Source: a virus. From it: DNA of 22,423 nucleotides. A program made the position numbers and the translations under genes. Location of the stretch: IMG/VR virus record IMGVR_UViG_3300032797_000035, positions 1 through 22,423 of that record, one strand, 5' to 3'. Below the pieces are notes generated by a model that was given only the letters and a program-made list of their open reading frames with translations, made no database searches and was not told the origin of the DNA. Below, piece by piece: positions 2,970-19,026 of the stretch (position 1 is its first letter; each line of letters starts with the position of its first letter).

Positions 2970-3527
2970 ATGAAGCTGTACGTAGAAAAAGTTGATAAAA
3001 ATGCCAAGATGCCTGAAAGAGCACACGCAACAGATAGTGGTTGCGATGTTTTTGTTTGTTCCTTCGATAAAGTTTTCTTTCCTGGTGCTGGGAACGAAGA
3101 AGTCTGTCTCGATACTCCAGAAAAAATCAAAACCCGTGCTATCGACCAGATTGATAGTAGTTTAGATCTTCCTACTCATGGTCGAGTTCTTGTTAACACA
3201 GGTCTTAAAGTCACTGTAGATGAGGGATATGATATTCAGGTTATACCAAGAAGCGGTCTTGCTATTAATAAGGGTCTAACTGTTTGTAATACGCCAGGGT
3301 GTATCGATAATGACTATCGAGGAAATTTATCTATTATCATCGTTAATACATCTAGAAAGAACCAAAAGATTTCAATCGGTGATAAAATTGCACAACTTGT
3401 AGTTAGAAAAGTAGAAATTCCAGAAATTGAAGAGGTTCAAAAACTTCCAGCTGCAAAAACTGATAGAGGTTCGGATGGATTCGGAAGCACGGATAAACTC
3501 GATAGGAGGGGTCGTGAAATTAGATAA
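2970..3527 (+). CDS. dut: dUTP diphosphatase
   Basis: 185 residues; SD AAGGGAGAGAGG directly upstream. All five motifs of trimeric dUTPases are present: ATDSGCDV (20-27), PRSGLA (93-98), GCIDNDYRG (110-118), IGDKIAQLV (136-144) and the C-terminal lid RGSDGFGST (166-174). It hydrolyses dUTP to dUMP and pyrophosphate, keeping uracil out of phage DNA and feeding dTMP synthesis. The protein is longer than the usual 140-150 residues because of an extra loop after motif 1 (roughly residues 36-68, acidic, with EEVCLDTPEK) and an 11-residue charged tail after the lid. Its last 14 bases overlap the preferred start of the lipase gene. Confidence 0.93.
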   Translation: MKLYVEKVDKNAKMPERAHATDSGCDVFVCSFDKVFFPGAGNEEVCLDTPEKIKTRAIDQIDSSLDLPTHGRVLVNTGLKVTVDEGYDIQVIPRSGLAINKGLTVCNTPGCIDNDYRGNLSIIIVNTSRKNQKISIGDKIAQLVVRKVEIPEIEEVQKLPAAKTDRGSDGFGSTDKLDRRGREIR

Positions 3528-4272
3528 ATCTGAAGCACTTCACTTCACCGAATATGTTGAGGCATCGAACTTAGATAGCAAGGCTTTAATAAATAAATAT
3601 CCAAATGCCACATATATCGAAAGTCATGAGACAGATACTCAATGCTTTGCTCTACCTTTAGAACGAGGTTCTAAGATAGATTTAGTAGTAACTTTCCGAG
3701 GCACAGAACCAAAGTTAAAGGACTGGATAACTGATATAGACGCTTTTAAAGTAGTTTATCCATATAACAATTTTAATAGTAAAATCAAAGTTCATAGAGG
3801 AATGATAAAGGCCTATAAATCAGTTAGAGATATAATTCACGCAGTCGTTAAACCACTTCAAGAAAGAATAGGTGTTATATATGTTATTGGTCACTCACTT
3901 GGTGGGTCTTTGGCTGTCCTATGTGCCGTTGATTTACAGTATAATTTCAACTCGGTCTGTGGACCTATTGTGTGTTATACTTATGGTGCCCCTAAAGTAG
4001 GAAATAAAGCTTTCGTAACCTCATACAATGAAAGGGTGAAAGAAACCTATAGAATTTACCTACGGACGGACTTAGTTCCAAATTTACCACCAGATTGGAT
4101 CGAAAAATTATTTGGAGTTGCTTACGAACACTCTGGAATACCTTGTCCAATTGGACCATGGAACCCCATCGTTGGTATCGTAGATATGATTAGGAGGAAA
4201 TACACACAGAGGTTTATAGCTGATGTAACTAACCATCATCTTAGCTTGTATAAAAAATATCTAAGTAATTAA
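3514..4272 (+). CDS. Lipase class 3-like alpha/beta hydrolase
   Basis: 252 residues from the GTG at 3514. The nucleophile elbow GHSLGG (126-131, Ser128) follows a beta strand (VIYVIGHSLGG), and an earlier VVTFRGTEPKLKDWITDI supplies the usual class 3 oxyanion region. The later RTDLVPNLPP carries the likely catalytic aspartate (Asp186) and NHHLSLY near the C-terminus the histidine. Known of the family: triacylglycerol or phospholipid ester hydrolysis. No signal peptide or membrane segment, so it acts in the cytoplasm or on the envelope after lysis; a role in membrane breakdown or host takeover is inference. The GTG is chosen because AGGAGG (3504-3509) lies just before it; in-frame ATGs at 3427 and 3475 would extend far into dut and have weaker SD sites. 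Confidence 0.8.
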   Translation: MKLDKSEALHFTEYVEASNLDSKALINKYPNATYIESHETDTQCFALPLERGSKIDLVVTFRGTEPKLKDWITDIDAFKVVYPYNNFNSKIKVHRGMIKAYKSVRDIIHAVVKPLQERIGVIYVIGHSLGGSLAVLCAVDLQYNFNSVCGPIVCYTYGAPKVGNKAFVTSYNERVKETYRIYLRTDLVPNLPPDWIEKLFGVAYEHSGIPCPIGPWNPIVGIVDMIRRKYTQRFIADVTNHHLSLYKKYLSN

Positions 4273-4280
4273 CTATACTA
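4266..4280 (+). promoter_or_regulatory. Candidate promoter -10 region
   Basis: TAATTAACTATACTA spans the end of the lipase gene and contains TATACT, one base off the bacterial -10 consensus. Nearly the same string, with one A missing, occurs at 4980-4993, just after a terminator. No convincing -35 box is seen 17 bases upstream. The recurrence in two gene gaps is the main support. Confidence 0.3.
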
Positions 4281-4980: not shown

Positions 4981-4993
4981 AATTACTATACTA
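4980..4993 (+). promoter_or_regulatory. Candidate promoter -10 region before the endonuclease gene
   Basis: TAATTACTATACTA follows the terminator T-run directly and contains TATACT five bases before the next ATG. A match to 4266-4280 (one-base indel) is the best evidence. No clear -35 is seen because the region upstream is the terminator stem. If real, the transcript would be nearly leaderless for the gene at 4999. Confidence 0.3.
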
Positions 4994-14473: not shown

Positions 14474-16446
14474 ATATAAGAAATTTTCTTCGTCGAAAAG
14501 TCAAGGACTTAAGTATCAGCGGGACAGTTCTCGAAACAGGTCTTGTTAAAGACAAGATAGATGTTGAAGATCCAACAGCTAAATTTTCTAGAGTTCAACT
14601 GGCCAAGATAACATACCCATCAGCGATAGCTAGAAATGTTGCATTCGTTCGTCCTGAATATGATCTAAAAACAATAGCCAATGCCGTTATGCTAGATGGG
14701 TTTCTTCGAAGATCAGTTAATATTTTTACCGAACAGATACTTAAAAACGGTTATGAATTTACTTCAAAAAATTCTAGGATTCAAAAACACGTTACTAAAA
14801 GAATTAAAGAAATTGAAAACTTAACCAATTTAGCCTTCTATGAGGTCGTTTCTCAAATTGCTCGCCAACTTGTAACCTACGCTAATGCCTATCTAATTAA
14901 AGTAAGATCTGATGCCAAATCTATCATAGGTAACACATATAGATTATACGGTCGAGACCTAATGCCGATAGTGGGACTTTTTATCGCTGAAGCATCAACG
15001 ATGGAAATAGGTCTTAATGATCGGAACCAGGTAGTTAATTATAAACAATACGTTAATGGTCAGGAAGTAATTTGGGACGCCAGAGATGTTATACATTTGA
15101 CTTACAATAAGATTCCTGGAACCATAACTGGTCTTTCCAATATTATATCGGTCTTAGATGATGTAAGAGCCCTTAGAAAACTTGAAGAAGAAGTAGAAAT
15201 ATTAGGATTTCAGTATTCGGTACCATTATATCTATACAAAGTTGGATCCAAGGATATCCCACCAGCTCCAGGAGAAATTGAACAAGTTAGGACGACAGTA
15301 AATAATATGCCGTCTTATGGAATGTTAGTGGTTCCTGGGCACCACACCGTTGAAGTTCCAACTAATAATAATTCTCCTCTAGATATTATCTCCTATATTA
15401 ATCACTTTAAGAAACGAATCTTTGCTGGATTAGGTGTTTCTCCCGTCGCGATGTCCGAATCCGATTCATCAAATAGAAATACCAGTCAGATATTAGATTT
15501 GTCCATGCAGGCTATCACGATTTCATTTCAAAGAATAATTAAAAGCAAATTTGAAATGGAACTAATTCGCGAATTGATGCTCGATGGCGGCTTTGGAAAT
15601 CTAAATGATGATTTTGAATTTAACTTCCCCGAAATAGATCTAGAAAATCAGATTAAGAAAGAAACTCATATTATAGCCAAATGGCAAAATAATCTGATAA
15701 CAAGAGCCGAAGGTAGACTTGAGATGGATTATGATACAACACTCGATGAGACCGACACATTCTTGGAAAAAATAAGTATTCCTCTAATCGAAGCCAAAAA
15801 TAATGGAATGATTCAAATTGCCAAGGAAAGCGCTAAAGCTAAAGCAATCTCCAATAAAAATCAACCAGCTAATCAGCATGGTAAACTAAATGCTAAACCT
15901 AAGATTGCTAAAGATCTAACAAGTTTATTAACGGCCACAAATGTTAAACTGATGGATACGTTAATAACTGATGAAGGTTATAAATCTCCTTTGAATATAT
16001 CTAAATATAAGACATCAATTAAAGAAGATATTTTAGATCAAGCGCTGAAATTCTATCTAATAACTACTAAGAAATATCTAGATTTTTTTAGATTAAATAC
16101 TACCGTTGATAATAGTTTATATAATCAGTTTATAAATTCAGTCGAATTAATTCTTGATTCCAAATTGGATATGATAAAAGATATTAAAAACGATGACTAT
16201 ATATCAGGTTACTCTGTTATATTACAGGAAATGTTTAGTGTCCTTGAATCAAAACTTCAGAATCTATCAAAATTATCAATATACAAGTCCTTGGGATATC
16301 TGACTATACTAACTAATACAGGTGAGTGTTCGCTGCACACAGAAACAAATATAAATATTAAGAATTTATCATATCGCGACCTCCCACCTTTCTCCTACGG
16401 ATGTAGGTGTGAAATAGAAGAAGAAAGTTTCTATGAGTTCAATTAG
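14470..16446 (+). CDS. Portal protein with MuF-like C-terminal extension
   Basis: 658 residues. Residues ~55-420 have portal character: SAIARNVAFVRPEYDLKTIA, then LDGFLRRSVNIFTEQILKNG, ARQLVTYANAYLIKVR, the WDARDVIHLTYNKIPGTITG turn that is typical of SPP1/HK97-type portals, and FAGLGVSPVAMSESDSSNRN at 316-335 region. It forms the ring through which DNA enters and leaves the head. After an acidic, lysine-rich linker the last ~170 residues end with LTNTGECSLHTE...LPPFSYGCRCEI (C620, C645, C647), which resembles the end of MuF-type head morphogenesis proteins (C..H...lPP-x-H/Y-x-x-CRC). The fusion would put a portal and a minor head protein on one chain. Portal call is firm; the MuF call moderate. 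Confidence 0.88.
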   Translation: MNIRNFLRRKVKDLSISGTVLETGLVKDKIDVEDPTAKFSRVQLAKITYPSAIARNVAFVRPEYDLKTIANAVMLDGFLRRSVNIFTEQILKNGYEFTSKNSRIQKHVTKRIKEIENLTNLAFYEVVSQIARQLVTYANAYLIKVRSDAKSIIGNTYRLYGRDLMPIVGLFIAEASTMEIGLNDRNQVVNYKQYVNGQEVIWDARDVIHLTYNKIPGTITGLSNIISVLDDVRALRKLEEEVEILGFQYSVPLYLYKVGSKDIPPAPGEIEQVRTTVNNMPSYGMLVVPGHHTVEVPTNNNSPLDIISYINHFKKRIFAGLGVSPVAMSESDSSNRNTSQILDLSMQAITISFQRIIKSKFEMELIRELMLDGGFGNLNDDFEFNFPEIDLENQIKKETHIIAKWQNNLITRAEGRLEMDYDTTLDETDTFLEKISIPLIEAKNNGMIQIAKESAKAKAISNKNQPANQHGKLNAKPKIAKDLTSLLTATNVKLMDTLITDEGYKSPLNISKYKTSIKEDILDQALKFYLITTKKYLDFFRLNTTVDNSLYNQFINSVELILDSKLDMIKDIKNDDYISGYSVILQEMFSVLESKLQNLSKLSIYKSLGYLTILTNTGECSLHTETNINIKNLSYRDLPPFSYGCRCEIEEESFYEFN

Positions 16447-17920
16447 ATTCATACCCGATTCGATAAATATTAAAATCAAAGCAACACACTTTGAATATAT
16501 TAATCGAAATGCTGTCTTGTATACCAAAAACGCTATCGATAAGGGTGCTAAAACTTGGGTTACTCCTTATAAGAAACCTAAACTTGTAGGGCACGATTCA
16601 AAAAAGGATCCTATCGGGCGCGTGACTGCTTATAATATAATTACAACTGACGCGGTTAATGAACCACCTAACTATATTGAACTTATTGCTCATATCACTG
16701 ACAAAGATGCCATCGCTAAGATATTAGATGGCAGATATTACACAGTTTCTGTTGGGTCCCGAAGTAATAAGGTTATCTGTAGCGAATGTAGTCAGATTAT
16801 AACAGAAGATGGTCTTTGTGAACATAAAAAAGGAACATACAATGGCGCAGGCAAACAGATATATTGGAAAATTGATCAGATTGATTATATAGAGAGTTCA
16901 TTTGTTAATGATCCCGCAGATGAATACGCTGCAGTCGATCAAATAGACCTAGGAACGGGCTGGATAGCATATCAGCAGTTTCTTGATCACCGAGAAGTTA
17001 TCTTATCAGAACTCCAAATGGAGGATATAGTAATGAATCCAAAAGATGCTGTTTTGACGGCTACAGCAAGGAACAATCTGCCTGATTCCGCCTTCTGTTA
17101 CGTTGTAACAAAGGATGGCACTAAGGTCAGAAAATTTCCCGCGCACGATGCCGCTCACGTTAGAAATGGCCTAGCTCGACTCTCACAGGCAAAACTTCCA
17201 GATTCAGTGAAGAATAAGATTAAGGCCTGCCTTTATCGAAAAGGCAAAAGATATGGCATTCAGCCATCGAAGGATGAACTGGAAGCACAACCAGACCTTG
17301 TAATCTATCGCATGGACGATGATTTTACTGCAGAAGAAATTCAAGCAGTTGAAGATCTCTTCAAGGCCGAACCTGATTTTGATGAGCCAAAAGAGGAATC
17401 GACTGAATCGGCTCCTAATACTTCCGAATCCAAGGATTTTAATTCAATGAAGAAGAACGAACTTCTTGATTATCTTAAAGAATTGGAAGAGGAACACAAA
17501 GATGCCTTAGAAGCTAAAGATAAAAAGATAACTGAACTGACTGAAACAATCAAACAGAAAGATACTATACTATTAGAAAGAGATAATGAGATTCAGAAAT
17601 TTCTTGATGAAAATGCTCTAATCAATGTTCGTTACCGAGACTCCGTCGTGAATCACATCGTCGATCTAAAAATTCTTGGCGGGGAAAAGACACAAAAAGA
17701 AGAACTTGGGAAGAAATATTCGACAAGAAAGGTCGAAAGTCTCATCGATACATTGTCTGATTTAAGACCGACACTCTCAATTCCCGATCCAAGTCAGACG
17801 CAGCCGCCCGTTCCCGATCCAACGCAGGCAGCTGAAAAACCAAAAGAAAATCAGGATGCGAATAAGGACAATCCTTACTCTATCTTTGATGTAGACAGAA
17901 CAACTATGGAGGTTGAATAA
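16433..17920 (+). CDS. Capsid maturation protease fused to scaffold
   Basis: 495 residues. Residues 1-~175 look like a serine prohead protease: VGHDSKKDPIGRV (His54), YIELIAHI, then GRYYTVSVGSRS (Ser106) and YIESSFVNDPADEYAAV. Between the Ser and SFVNDPAD lies an inserted zinc-like knuckle, C116, C119, C129, H131 (CSECS...LCEH). Residues ~213-276 (LPDSAFCYV...KVRKFPAHDAAHVRNGLAR...KRYGI) match a small domain common in phage protease-scaffolds (DUF6582-like). Residues 339-393 are a coiled coil, then proline-rich IPDPSQTQPPVPDP and an acidic end, as in scaffolds that fill the prohead and are later digested. An internal SD and ATG at 17033 lie between protease and scaffold. It overlaps the portal gene by 14 bases. 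Confidence 0.85.
   Translation: MSSIRFIPDSINIKIKATHFEYINRNAVLYTKNAIDKGAKTWVTPYKKPKLVGHDSKKDPIGRVTAYNIITTDAVNEPPNYIELIAHITDKDAIAKILDGRYYTVSVGSRSNKVICSECSQIITEDGLCEHKKGTYNGAGKQIYWKIDQIDYIESSFVNDPADEYAAVDQIDLGTGWIAYQQFLDHREVILSELQMEDIVMNPKDAVLTATARNNLPDSAFCYVVTKDGTKVRKFPAHDAAHVRNGLARLSQAKLPDSVKNKIKACLYRKGKRYGIQPSKDELEAQPDLVIYRMDDDFTAEEIQAVEDLFKAEPDFDEPKEESTESAPNTSESKDFNSMKKNELLDYLKELEEEHKDALEAKDKKITELTETIKQKDTILLERDNEIQKFLDENALINVRYRDSVVNHIVDLKILGGEKTQKEELGKKYSTRKVESLIDTLSDLRPTLSIPDPSQTQPPVPDPTQAAEKPKENQDANKDNPYSIFDVDRTTMEVE
17020..17035 (+). promoter_or_regulatory. Internal ribosome binding site for a nested scaffold
   Basis: GGAGG (17020-17024) lies eight bases before an in-frame ATG (17033-17035). 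It sits at the boundary between protease domain and scaffold part, at codon 201, better placed than most true starts in this window. This is the arrangement seen in lambda C/Nu3. Confidence 0.6.
17033..17920 (+). CDS. Predicted nested scaffold protein (internal start in the protease-scaffold gene)
   Basis: Starting at the internal ATG 17033 gives 295 residues, beginning MNPKDAVLTATARNN. It would contain the DUF6582-like domain, the coiled coil (residues ~139-193 of this product), the proline-rich spacer and the acidic C-terminal end, but no protease residues. Known from lambda and other phages: scaffold made in excess from an in-frame internal start assembles with a few protease fusions, so that proheads carry limited protease. 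The SD, spacing and exact domain-boundary position are seen in the sequence; production of the shorter protein is inferred. Confidence 0.55.
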   Translation: MNPKDAVLTATARNNLPDSAFCYVVTKDGTKVRKFPAHDAAHVRNGLARLSQAKLPDSVKNKIKACLYRKGKRYGIQPSKDELEAQPDLVIYRMDDDFTAEEIQAVEDLFKAEPDFDEPKEESTESAPNTSESKDFNSMKKNELLDYLKELEEEHKDALEAKDKKITELTETIKQKDTILLERDNEIQKFLDENALINVRYRDSVVNHIVDLKILGGEKTQKEELGKKYSTRKVESLIDTLSDLRPTLSIPDPSQTQPPVPDPTQAAEKPKENQDANKDNPYSIFDVDRTTMEVE

Positions 17921-19026
17921 TGGCTATTGGAAATTTTGGAATGCAATTCAACACCCAGAATGCTCACAAGTTCGATATCAGAACTCGGCCATCAAAGTAT
18001 GCTGTATCTGATATTGGAAACCTCCGTTTTGAACAGAGCGAAGGTATTAGACCTGCAGAGTATTTTGGCGTGTACAAGTATCTGCCCGTCGCCATGGAGG
18101 ATGTAACATCCGAAGATTGGATTGTTATTCCAAAGGGGCGTATTGTGGCGGCTGTTTCAAGTGAAGATTCGTCAGTTACTGGTCGACTGACTTATCCCAA
18201 TTCCAGCGGATCTATTTATATAGGTCATGCTGCAAGTGAACTGGGCGGGGCGGCAATTTCAGTAAGTATTGATGAGTCTTTCTTTGGTTACAGTGAATTC
18301 ATCTGTGGCCTATTAGTTCCAGCAAATGGTGGAAGTGTATGTAGTGGTTTCTACACAGCCGATGACGTAACAGCTGGAACATTGATGTCTAATGGTGTCG
18401 TAGCCGTTGCAGGTAGTGGATGTACTCTTCCAGCAAATGCTCCTATTGGCGTGGCCTACCACGACTGGTATCAGGATTTGACAGGCAGATATCTAAACTA
18501 TCGTATGCATTCAGACGGCGGGCACGTGCTAACTGACTGGTACGTTGAAGTTCCATATGTTAAGGTTAGCAATAGTGCTTACTCTGGAGTAGATCCTCGG
18601 TATGATAATACTTATGCTGGCGGAAATACTTGGAAAGATATCAATGAGAAGTTTGCATATCTAGCTGTTGATACGGTTAATAGTGATGTCTTCAGAACTG
18701 GCGTCTTCGTAACATCCGACCTAATTGGTAACTATAAGATTCAAGGTGGCGCGAGTGCTCTGACACAAAGCAAGACCGTTCAGACAGTCGGTAAGATTCT
18801 AGCGATTGATAATAGATTCCCCAAGGGTGGGATGGAAGATGTTCTAACCTATCCGAGATCTGGAATGCCTGGCACTCAGACTGCTGGTCTGCCTAAGTAT
18901 CTGTTCGATTTCGTCTACGATTGTATTCGAATCGGTCAGGGAACAGCACCCACAATCGAGGGTGTCTATAATGCCGTCCGAGAAGGCGCATTTGGACTAG
19001 CTAGAATTCAGCTACTCGTATCATAA
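17920..19026 (+). CDS. Probable capsid decoration or minor head protein, 368 aa
   Basis: SD GGAGG (in ATGGAGGTTGAATAATG) lies seven bases before the start, which overlaps the previous stop. The 368 residues begin MAIGNFGMQFNTQNAHKFDI and are rich in Gly, Ser, Val and Tyr with an alternating beta-strand pattern, no cysteine cluster and no membrane helix. There is no enzyme motif. It lies between scaffold and major capsid, where decoration or cement proteins are common. Codon use here and in the capsid gene shifts to more C-ending codons, which fits high expression. Another option is a head-fibre or capsid-vertex protein. The structural role is well supported by context, the exact role is not. 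Confidence 0.65.
   Translation: MAIGNFGMQFNTQNAHKFDIRTRPSKYAVSDIGNLRFEQSEGIRPAEYFGVYKYLPVAMEDVTSEDWIVIPKGRIVAAVSSEDSSVTGRLTYPNSSGSIYIGHAASELGGAAISVSIDESFFGYSEFICGLLVPANGGSVCSGFYTADDVTAGTLMSNGVVAVAGSGCTLPANAPIGVAYHDWYQDLTGRYLNYRMHSDGGHVLTDWYVEVPYVKVSNSAYSGVDPRYDNTYAGGNTWKDINEKFAYLAVDTVNSDVFRTGVFVTSDLIGNYKIQGGASALTQSKTVQTVGKILAIDNRFPKGGMEDVLTYPRSGMPGTQTAGLPKYLFDFVYDCIRIGQGTAPTIEGVYNAVREGAFGLARIQLLVS

Follow-up and report, generated by a model that had tools for sequence, protein, structure and literature searches.

Nested scaffold genes in described systems

In bacteriophage lambda, the scaffold gene nu3 lies in frame within the protease gene C, with its own start inside C and a shared stop; the portal gene (B) overlaps the start of C, and a small head gene and then the major capsid gene follow. 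The I/Z pair of phage Mu is laid out alike, its nested scaffold start being codon 179 of 361 and carrying an annotated RBS. Other phages again have split scaffold genes. Excerpts of a report on the Mu-like phage PaMx73 propose a nested start at Val177 with a Shine-Dalgarno sequence (SD) at 9 nt (PMC4378225). In herpesviruses, the protease gene UL26 overlaps in frame with the 3′-coterminal scaffold gene UL26.5, as described in excerpts of PMC4498786, and titles cited there describe 3′-coterminal transcripts. Given lambda C/nu3, Mu I/Z and UL26/UL26.5, the type of arrangement is already known, and the locus described here is a well-supported new case of it, from a large uncultured phage group. 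Our search of the open-licence PMC literature turned up no recognised description of this nested start or of DUF6582 in phage scaffolds.

The protease-scaffold locus

The DNA analysed, hereafter the window, is an IMG/VR virus fragment of 22,423 bases, in which the gene at 16433-17920 stands in the order portal, protease-scaffold, 368-aa head gene and major capsid gene. Profile searches identified the upstream portal gene (phrog_9232, E 4e-43) and the downstream major capsid gene (PF25209, E 2e-17), and the first 14 nt of the 16433 gene are shared with the end of the portal gene. The 368-aa head gene (17920-19026) sits where lambda has its decoration gene D, and it is conserved in relatives (19 aligned); profile searches found no family for it, and the AlphaFold2 model of its product was of too low quality for use (mean pLDDT 52). 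The features of the locus are as follows.

16433..17920, plus strand: protease-scaffold fusion gene of 495 aa, ATG start with a weak SD (phrog_18299 match)
16451..16912, plus strand: segment of the protease domain that superposes on T4 gp21, model residues 7-160 (5jbl alignment)
17020..17024, plus strand: internal Shine-Dalgarno sequence GGAGG (sequence, conservation, codon bias)
17033..17035, plus strand: candidate nested in-frame ATG start, codon 201 (sequence, conservation)
17033..17920, plus strand: nested scaffold frame with a predicted product of 295 aa (conservation, SD scores, model)
17048..17287, plus strand: DUF6582-like or phrog_16160 domain, about residues 206-285 (profile searches)
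17453..17671, plus strand: long predicted helix, residues 341-413, a coiled-coil-like scaffold core (AlphaFold2, pLDDT about 82-92)
17687..17764, plus strand: two conserved C-terminal helices, residues 419-444 (alignment, AlphaFold2)
17908..17912, plus strand: GGAGG of the next gene (start 17920), within the end of the protease-scaffold gene (positive control at synonymous sites)

In our judgement it is very likely that 16433-17920 is a prohead protease-scaffold fusion gene in which 17033 serves as another functional site of translation initiation. The GGAGG at 17020-17024, the 8-nt spacer at 17025-17032 and the ATG at 17033, codon 201 of 495 and in frame with 16433, were all confirmed as the sequence-only reading had described them.

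Domains of the fusion protein

The 495-aa protein was modelled with AlphaFold2 from 26 sequences (mean pLDDT 73), resulting in a compact protease up to about residue 195, a linker at 197-205 containing the nested Met, then residues 206-285 as a domain of weak model quality, a long helix (341-413), two further helices (419-444) and a disordered tail. The proposal that the ATG sits at the protease/scaffold boundary was borne out by this model, as the codon lies within the linker, modelled at low confidence, that separates the protease fold from what follows.

Residues 89-167 match phrog_18299 (head maturation protease), weakly, at E 1e-5. When the protease model was compared with known structures, VIA-align placed T4 gp21 (5jbl) at the top, with a Z of 9.1 and 121 residues aligned at an rmsd of 2.7, and ranks 1-18 were all gp21 or herpesvirus proteases, the latter with Z 5.6-6.9; Foldseek alone gave T4 gp21 at E 0.03 and probability 0.95. 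The protease domain is thus modelled with a T4 gp21/herpesvirus assemblin-type fold. S106 is invariant in 26 of 26 relatives and H54 is present in at least 90% of the aligned rows; the two may be the catalytic Ser and His. Profile searches of the protein and its relatives gave no match to the S49 family. Since lambda C is annotated as an S49 peptidase, the two loci share a layout and probably differ in protease family; the match in layout with lambda C/Nu3 put forward earlier stands, and it extends to Mu I/Z. With a protease that models best on T4 gp21 and the herpesvirus enzymes, the nearest parallel in fold is UL26/UL26.5, which also has the in-frame, shared-end layout; for translation it is lambda C/nu3 or Mu I/Z.

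Residues 116-131 (16778-16825) hold a CxxC...CxH cluster, invariant in 26 of 26 aligned relatives, which may form a zinc-knuckle-like insertion near the conserved Ser of the protease domain.

Behind the nested start, residues 206-266 match phrog_16160, a family of unknown function, at E 3e-8, the match beginning just past the start codon. The scaffold had also been said to keep a DUF6582-like domain, and what stood of this was a weak likeness, PF20223 being matched by 5 of 26 relatives (E up to 0.1, best 0.0048) and by the window protein not at all at E 1. The record of phage Mu notes no DUF6582-like domain, unlike the present group. Neither profile nor fold searches matched a scaffold family to the C-terminal half, and a profile search of PDB sequences with the alignment of relatives gave a weak coiled-coil match only (E 0.066).

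Conservation of the probable nested start

By itself, the nested site is only moderately unusual. Among 119 internal in-frame ATGs in the 29 ORFs of the window, the ATG at 17033 has the strongest anti-SD duplex (-9.3 kcal/mol). GGAGG or AGGAG precedes 4 of 1233 internal ATGs in the other ORFs of the clade-1 loci (defined below), and about 0.4 ATGs so preceded are expected per window by chance, which makes the single case at 17033 weak evidence when taken alone. Significance from one gene was likewise tried and rejected: in a codon-shuffle and candidate-start test of 94 genes (70 after dereplication), shuffles of synonymous codons in a single gene attained the real score too often, with no more than 10 of 200 doing so in only 9 of 31 clade-1 and 9 of 14 clade-2 genes. 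As most of the clade-1 genes were not significant, the case for the nested start is one of conservation, and on conservation across relatives the start is, from the alignments, far more than chance would give.

Clade 1, collected from scans of viral contigs, comprises 33 rows with the junction, the window included, of which 31 are less than 90% identical; the rows aligned with the window protein are roughly 40-77% identical to it. Loss of the ATG or SD in close relatives had been named as the finding that would count against the site. On alignment, none of the 33 rows had lost the ATG, and 31 of 33 had GGAGG, the exceptions being L017, with AGGAG, and L031, with a weak SD, AAAGGA, 10 nt from the ATG. 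The spacing from GGAGG to ATG is 5 or 8 nt (6 in L017; L062 has ATGs at both 5 and 11). The linker residues around the start are hypervariable, and the aligned position of the ATG moves by one codon between lineages, always within reach of the SD. In L034 the DUF6582-like domain is absent and the SD and ATG are kept. Rows left out of the junction alignment were incomplete genes (L033, L036, L039) or from the same contig as another row (L010, with L005), and L008/L051 and L064 are without the junction. No clade-1 row with a full gene has a split protease and scaffold.

Selection on nucleotides and rival readings

The codons that make up the SD are strongly biased. In 23 dereplicated genes, GAG encodes the Glu of the SD core in 22 of 22 cases, compared with 26% of 983 other Glu codons, the remaining gene having Lys at that position, and the Leu before this Glu is encoded by TTG or CTG in 13 of 14 cases, compared with 13% elsewhere. 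The same 23 genes hold 123 internal in-frame ATGs, and GGAGG or AGGAG occurs solely at 22 junction ATGs. The GAG usage indicates that selection acts at the nucleotide level. A synonymous-constraint scan of 31 genes in 5-codon windows, whose z values ignore shared ancestry, placed codons 193-199 among the top peaks, as it did codons 489-494, the SD of the following gene and the positive control; the highest peak in the gene, above the nested start, is at codons 376-382, which hold the octamer CTATACTA.

Leu/Met-Glu-Asp is common at the site, so that a boundary peptide of the form LED/MED-x-M might be kept for protein reasons, as a linker or cleavage site, with the SD and ATG as by-products. We give this reading hardly any weight, because selection among synonymous codons in the SD (GAG and xTG, above) excludes a purely protein-level cause, because L017 is without the Asp yet keeps AGGAG and ATG, and because the Met moves by one codon from lineage to lineage. 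Ribosomes can be delayed at SD-like sequences within genes, and the SD lies just downstream of the protease domain, where a translational pause could assist co-translational folding of the protease; a pause, however, needs no ATG or GTG 5-8 nt away, and start codons are kept in 33 of 33 genes of clade 1 and 14 of 14 of clade 2, which leaves a pause without initiation just as improbable as the boundary peptide. Slightly less remote, though still very unlikely, is that the start is the relic of a fusion between the protease gene and a once-separate scaffold gene, as its place exactly at the domain boundary and the split genes of other phages would allow: it is retained, with selection at synonymous sites, across relatives of roughly 45-50% identity, and the split arrangement is missing from the clade-1 rows with a full gene.

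The strongest of the rivals, unlikely as it also is, accepts that a short product is made and assigns it another role, for example in protease regulation or DNA ejection. The profile searches, which gave no match to a known scaffold, and the DUF6582-like domain, which has no known function, would agree with such a role, whereas the gene order before the head genes, the coiled coil, the conserved C-terminal helices and tail, and the precedents of lambda, Mu and herpesviruses speak for scaffolding.

Two probable products of one gene

On the reading we prefer, a functional nested start, the gene very probably makes a long protease-scaffold fusion and a shorter scaffold alone. Initiation at 16433, with its weak SD overlapping the portal stop, would yield the 495-residue fusion, the scaffold half of which would bring the protease into the procapsid. 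Initiation at 17033 on the same message would yield a 295-residue scaffold free of the protease and composed of the DUF6582-like domain, the coiled coil and the conserved C-terminal helices and tail. The protease would later remove the scaffold. The sequence itself shows the site, its conservation, the selection on nucleotides, the modelled protease fold and the gene order, while initiation at 17033, the scaffold identity of the product, its excess over the fusion and its later removal by the protease are inferred.

The mean SD energy is -4.0 kcal/mol for the main starts and -9.0 for the nested starts, and the nested SD beats the best SD of a main start in 25 of 25 loci scored (the main starts of L015, L016 and L030 are uncertain or missing). 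In lambda the order is opposite, the protease start having the strong SD (-11.9) and nu3 the weaker one (-7.4), whereas in the present phages it is the protease start whose SD is weak. SD strength is thus no proof of a product ratio, and we rejected it as such. When internal starts of the same gene were ranked by SD pairing, nu3 came second in lambda and Z first in Mu. The suggestion that a single gene could give a few protease fusions and many scaffolds is accordingly supported by the conserved site as far as the two products go, while its few-to-many ratio draws only on SD strength, which the lambda control shows to be unreliable. The simplest reading would be a single message translated from both starts, the fusion being scarce and the scaffold more plentiful.

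Clade 2 and the wider family

A second set of 14 dereplicated, more distant genes (clade 2) carries AAGGAGG 5 bases before GTG (12) or ATG (2) in 14 of 14 cases, about 70 codons past the protease and directly ahead of the coiled coil. Val at this nested start is encoded by GTG in 12 of 12 genes, compared with 14% elsewhere. The DUF6582-like domain falls within the nested product in clade 1 only and not in clade 2, and from the alignments the nested-start positions of the two clades do not look homologous. Outside both clades, 4 of 25 dereplicated relatives (L117, L004, L038 and L123) have a strong candidate start, defined as -8 kcal/mol or better within 100 codons after the protease, and the scan of candidate starts found no convincing one in Moorella phage MTATph1. 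A nested start as a universal rule of the wider family was therefore rejected, and on these counts the device is probably frequent, not universal. A similar fused protease-scaffold-like gene was also seen in Oceanobacillus, Alicyclobacillus and Paenibacillus genomes (L121, L122 and L123), presumably in prophages; L123 has a candidate internal ATG and L121 has none.

Bacillus phage vB_BauM_KLEB27-3 (L004) provides a cultured relative of the protease domain in gp014, annotated as a prohead protease. Its gene has an in-frame GTG at codon 256 behind GAGGAGG, which is not annotated as a start; no DUF6582-like domain was seen, and the coiled coil follows the GTG immediately, an arrangement shared with clade 2. 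This makes gp014 the handiest system for a bench test. Since annotation gives one protein, as in KLEB27-3, the scaffold would be missed in a large, mostly uncultured phage group, some members of which are on contigs longer than 200 kb, and the conserved SD-ATG lets the true scaffold be located by a simple rule. The group may also serve as a bacterial counterpart of herpesvirus UL26/UL26.5, with the same modelled protease fold, in which the protease-to-scaffold ratio is directly testable.

A strand-biased octamer in the head region

The octamer CTATACTA occurs 91 times in sense and 4 times in antisense in the 33 clade-1 loci (275 kb, some rows being duplicates), where about 11 are expected. In the window it lies at 16304-16311 and 17565-17572, and also at 4273-4280 and 4986-4993. 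Its fixed places are within the portal gene before the protease gene (16304), inside the coiled coil, about 350 bases upstream of the head gene that follows (17565), and in the gene before the portal; in several loci (L055, L056, L058 and L063) it also stands behind terminator-like hairpins after the capsid genes. In relatives its DNA sequence is conserved within the portal and scaffold frames, and it resembles a late promoter. In three contigs longer than 200 kb it was not enriched over a reversed-pattern control, and in two shorter contigs (G005 and G006) it was strongly one-stranded, which may mean that only late regions, or only some members of the group, carry it. None was found between the 16433 and 17033 starts in the window, which makes a translational choice on one message more likely here, in contrast to the 3′-coterminal transcripts of UL26/UL26.5.

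A broader proposal, tentative and perhaps a little likelier to fail than to hold, is that in phages a prohead protease gene of herpes fold gained a nested scaffold start on two or more occasions, the positions being non-homologous and the start codons unlike (in clade 1 an ATG ahead of a DUF6582-like domain, in clade 2 a GTG ahead of the coiled coil), the UL26/UL26.5 layout being a recurrent solution to the protease-to-scaffold ratio. With CTATACTA as a late promoter in the scaffold coil, the doses of protease, scaffold and head protein would then be set from one 1.5-kb stretch.

Elsewhere in the window, the ORF at 3427-4272 contains a GHSLGG motif, which we take as lipase-like. Its listed TTG start overlaps the dUTPase-like ORF at 2970-3527, and its true start is probably further downstream.
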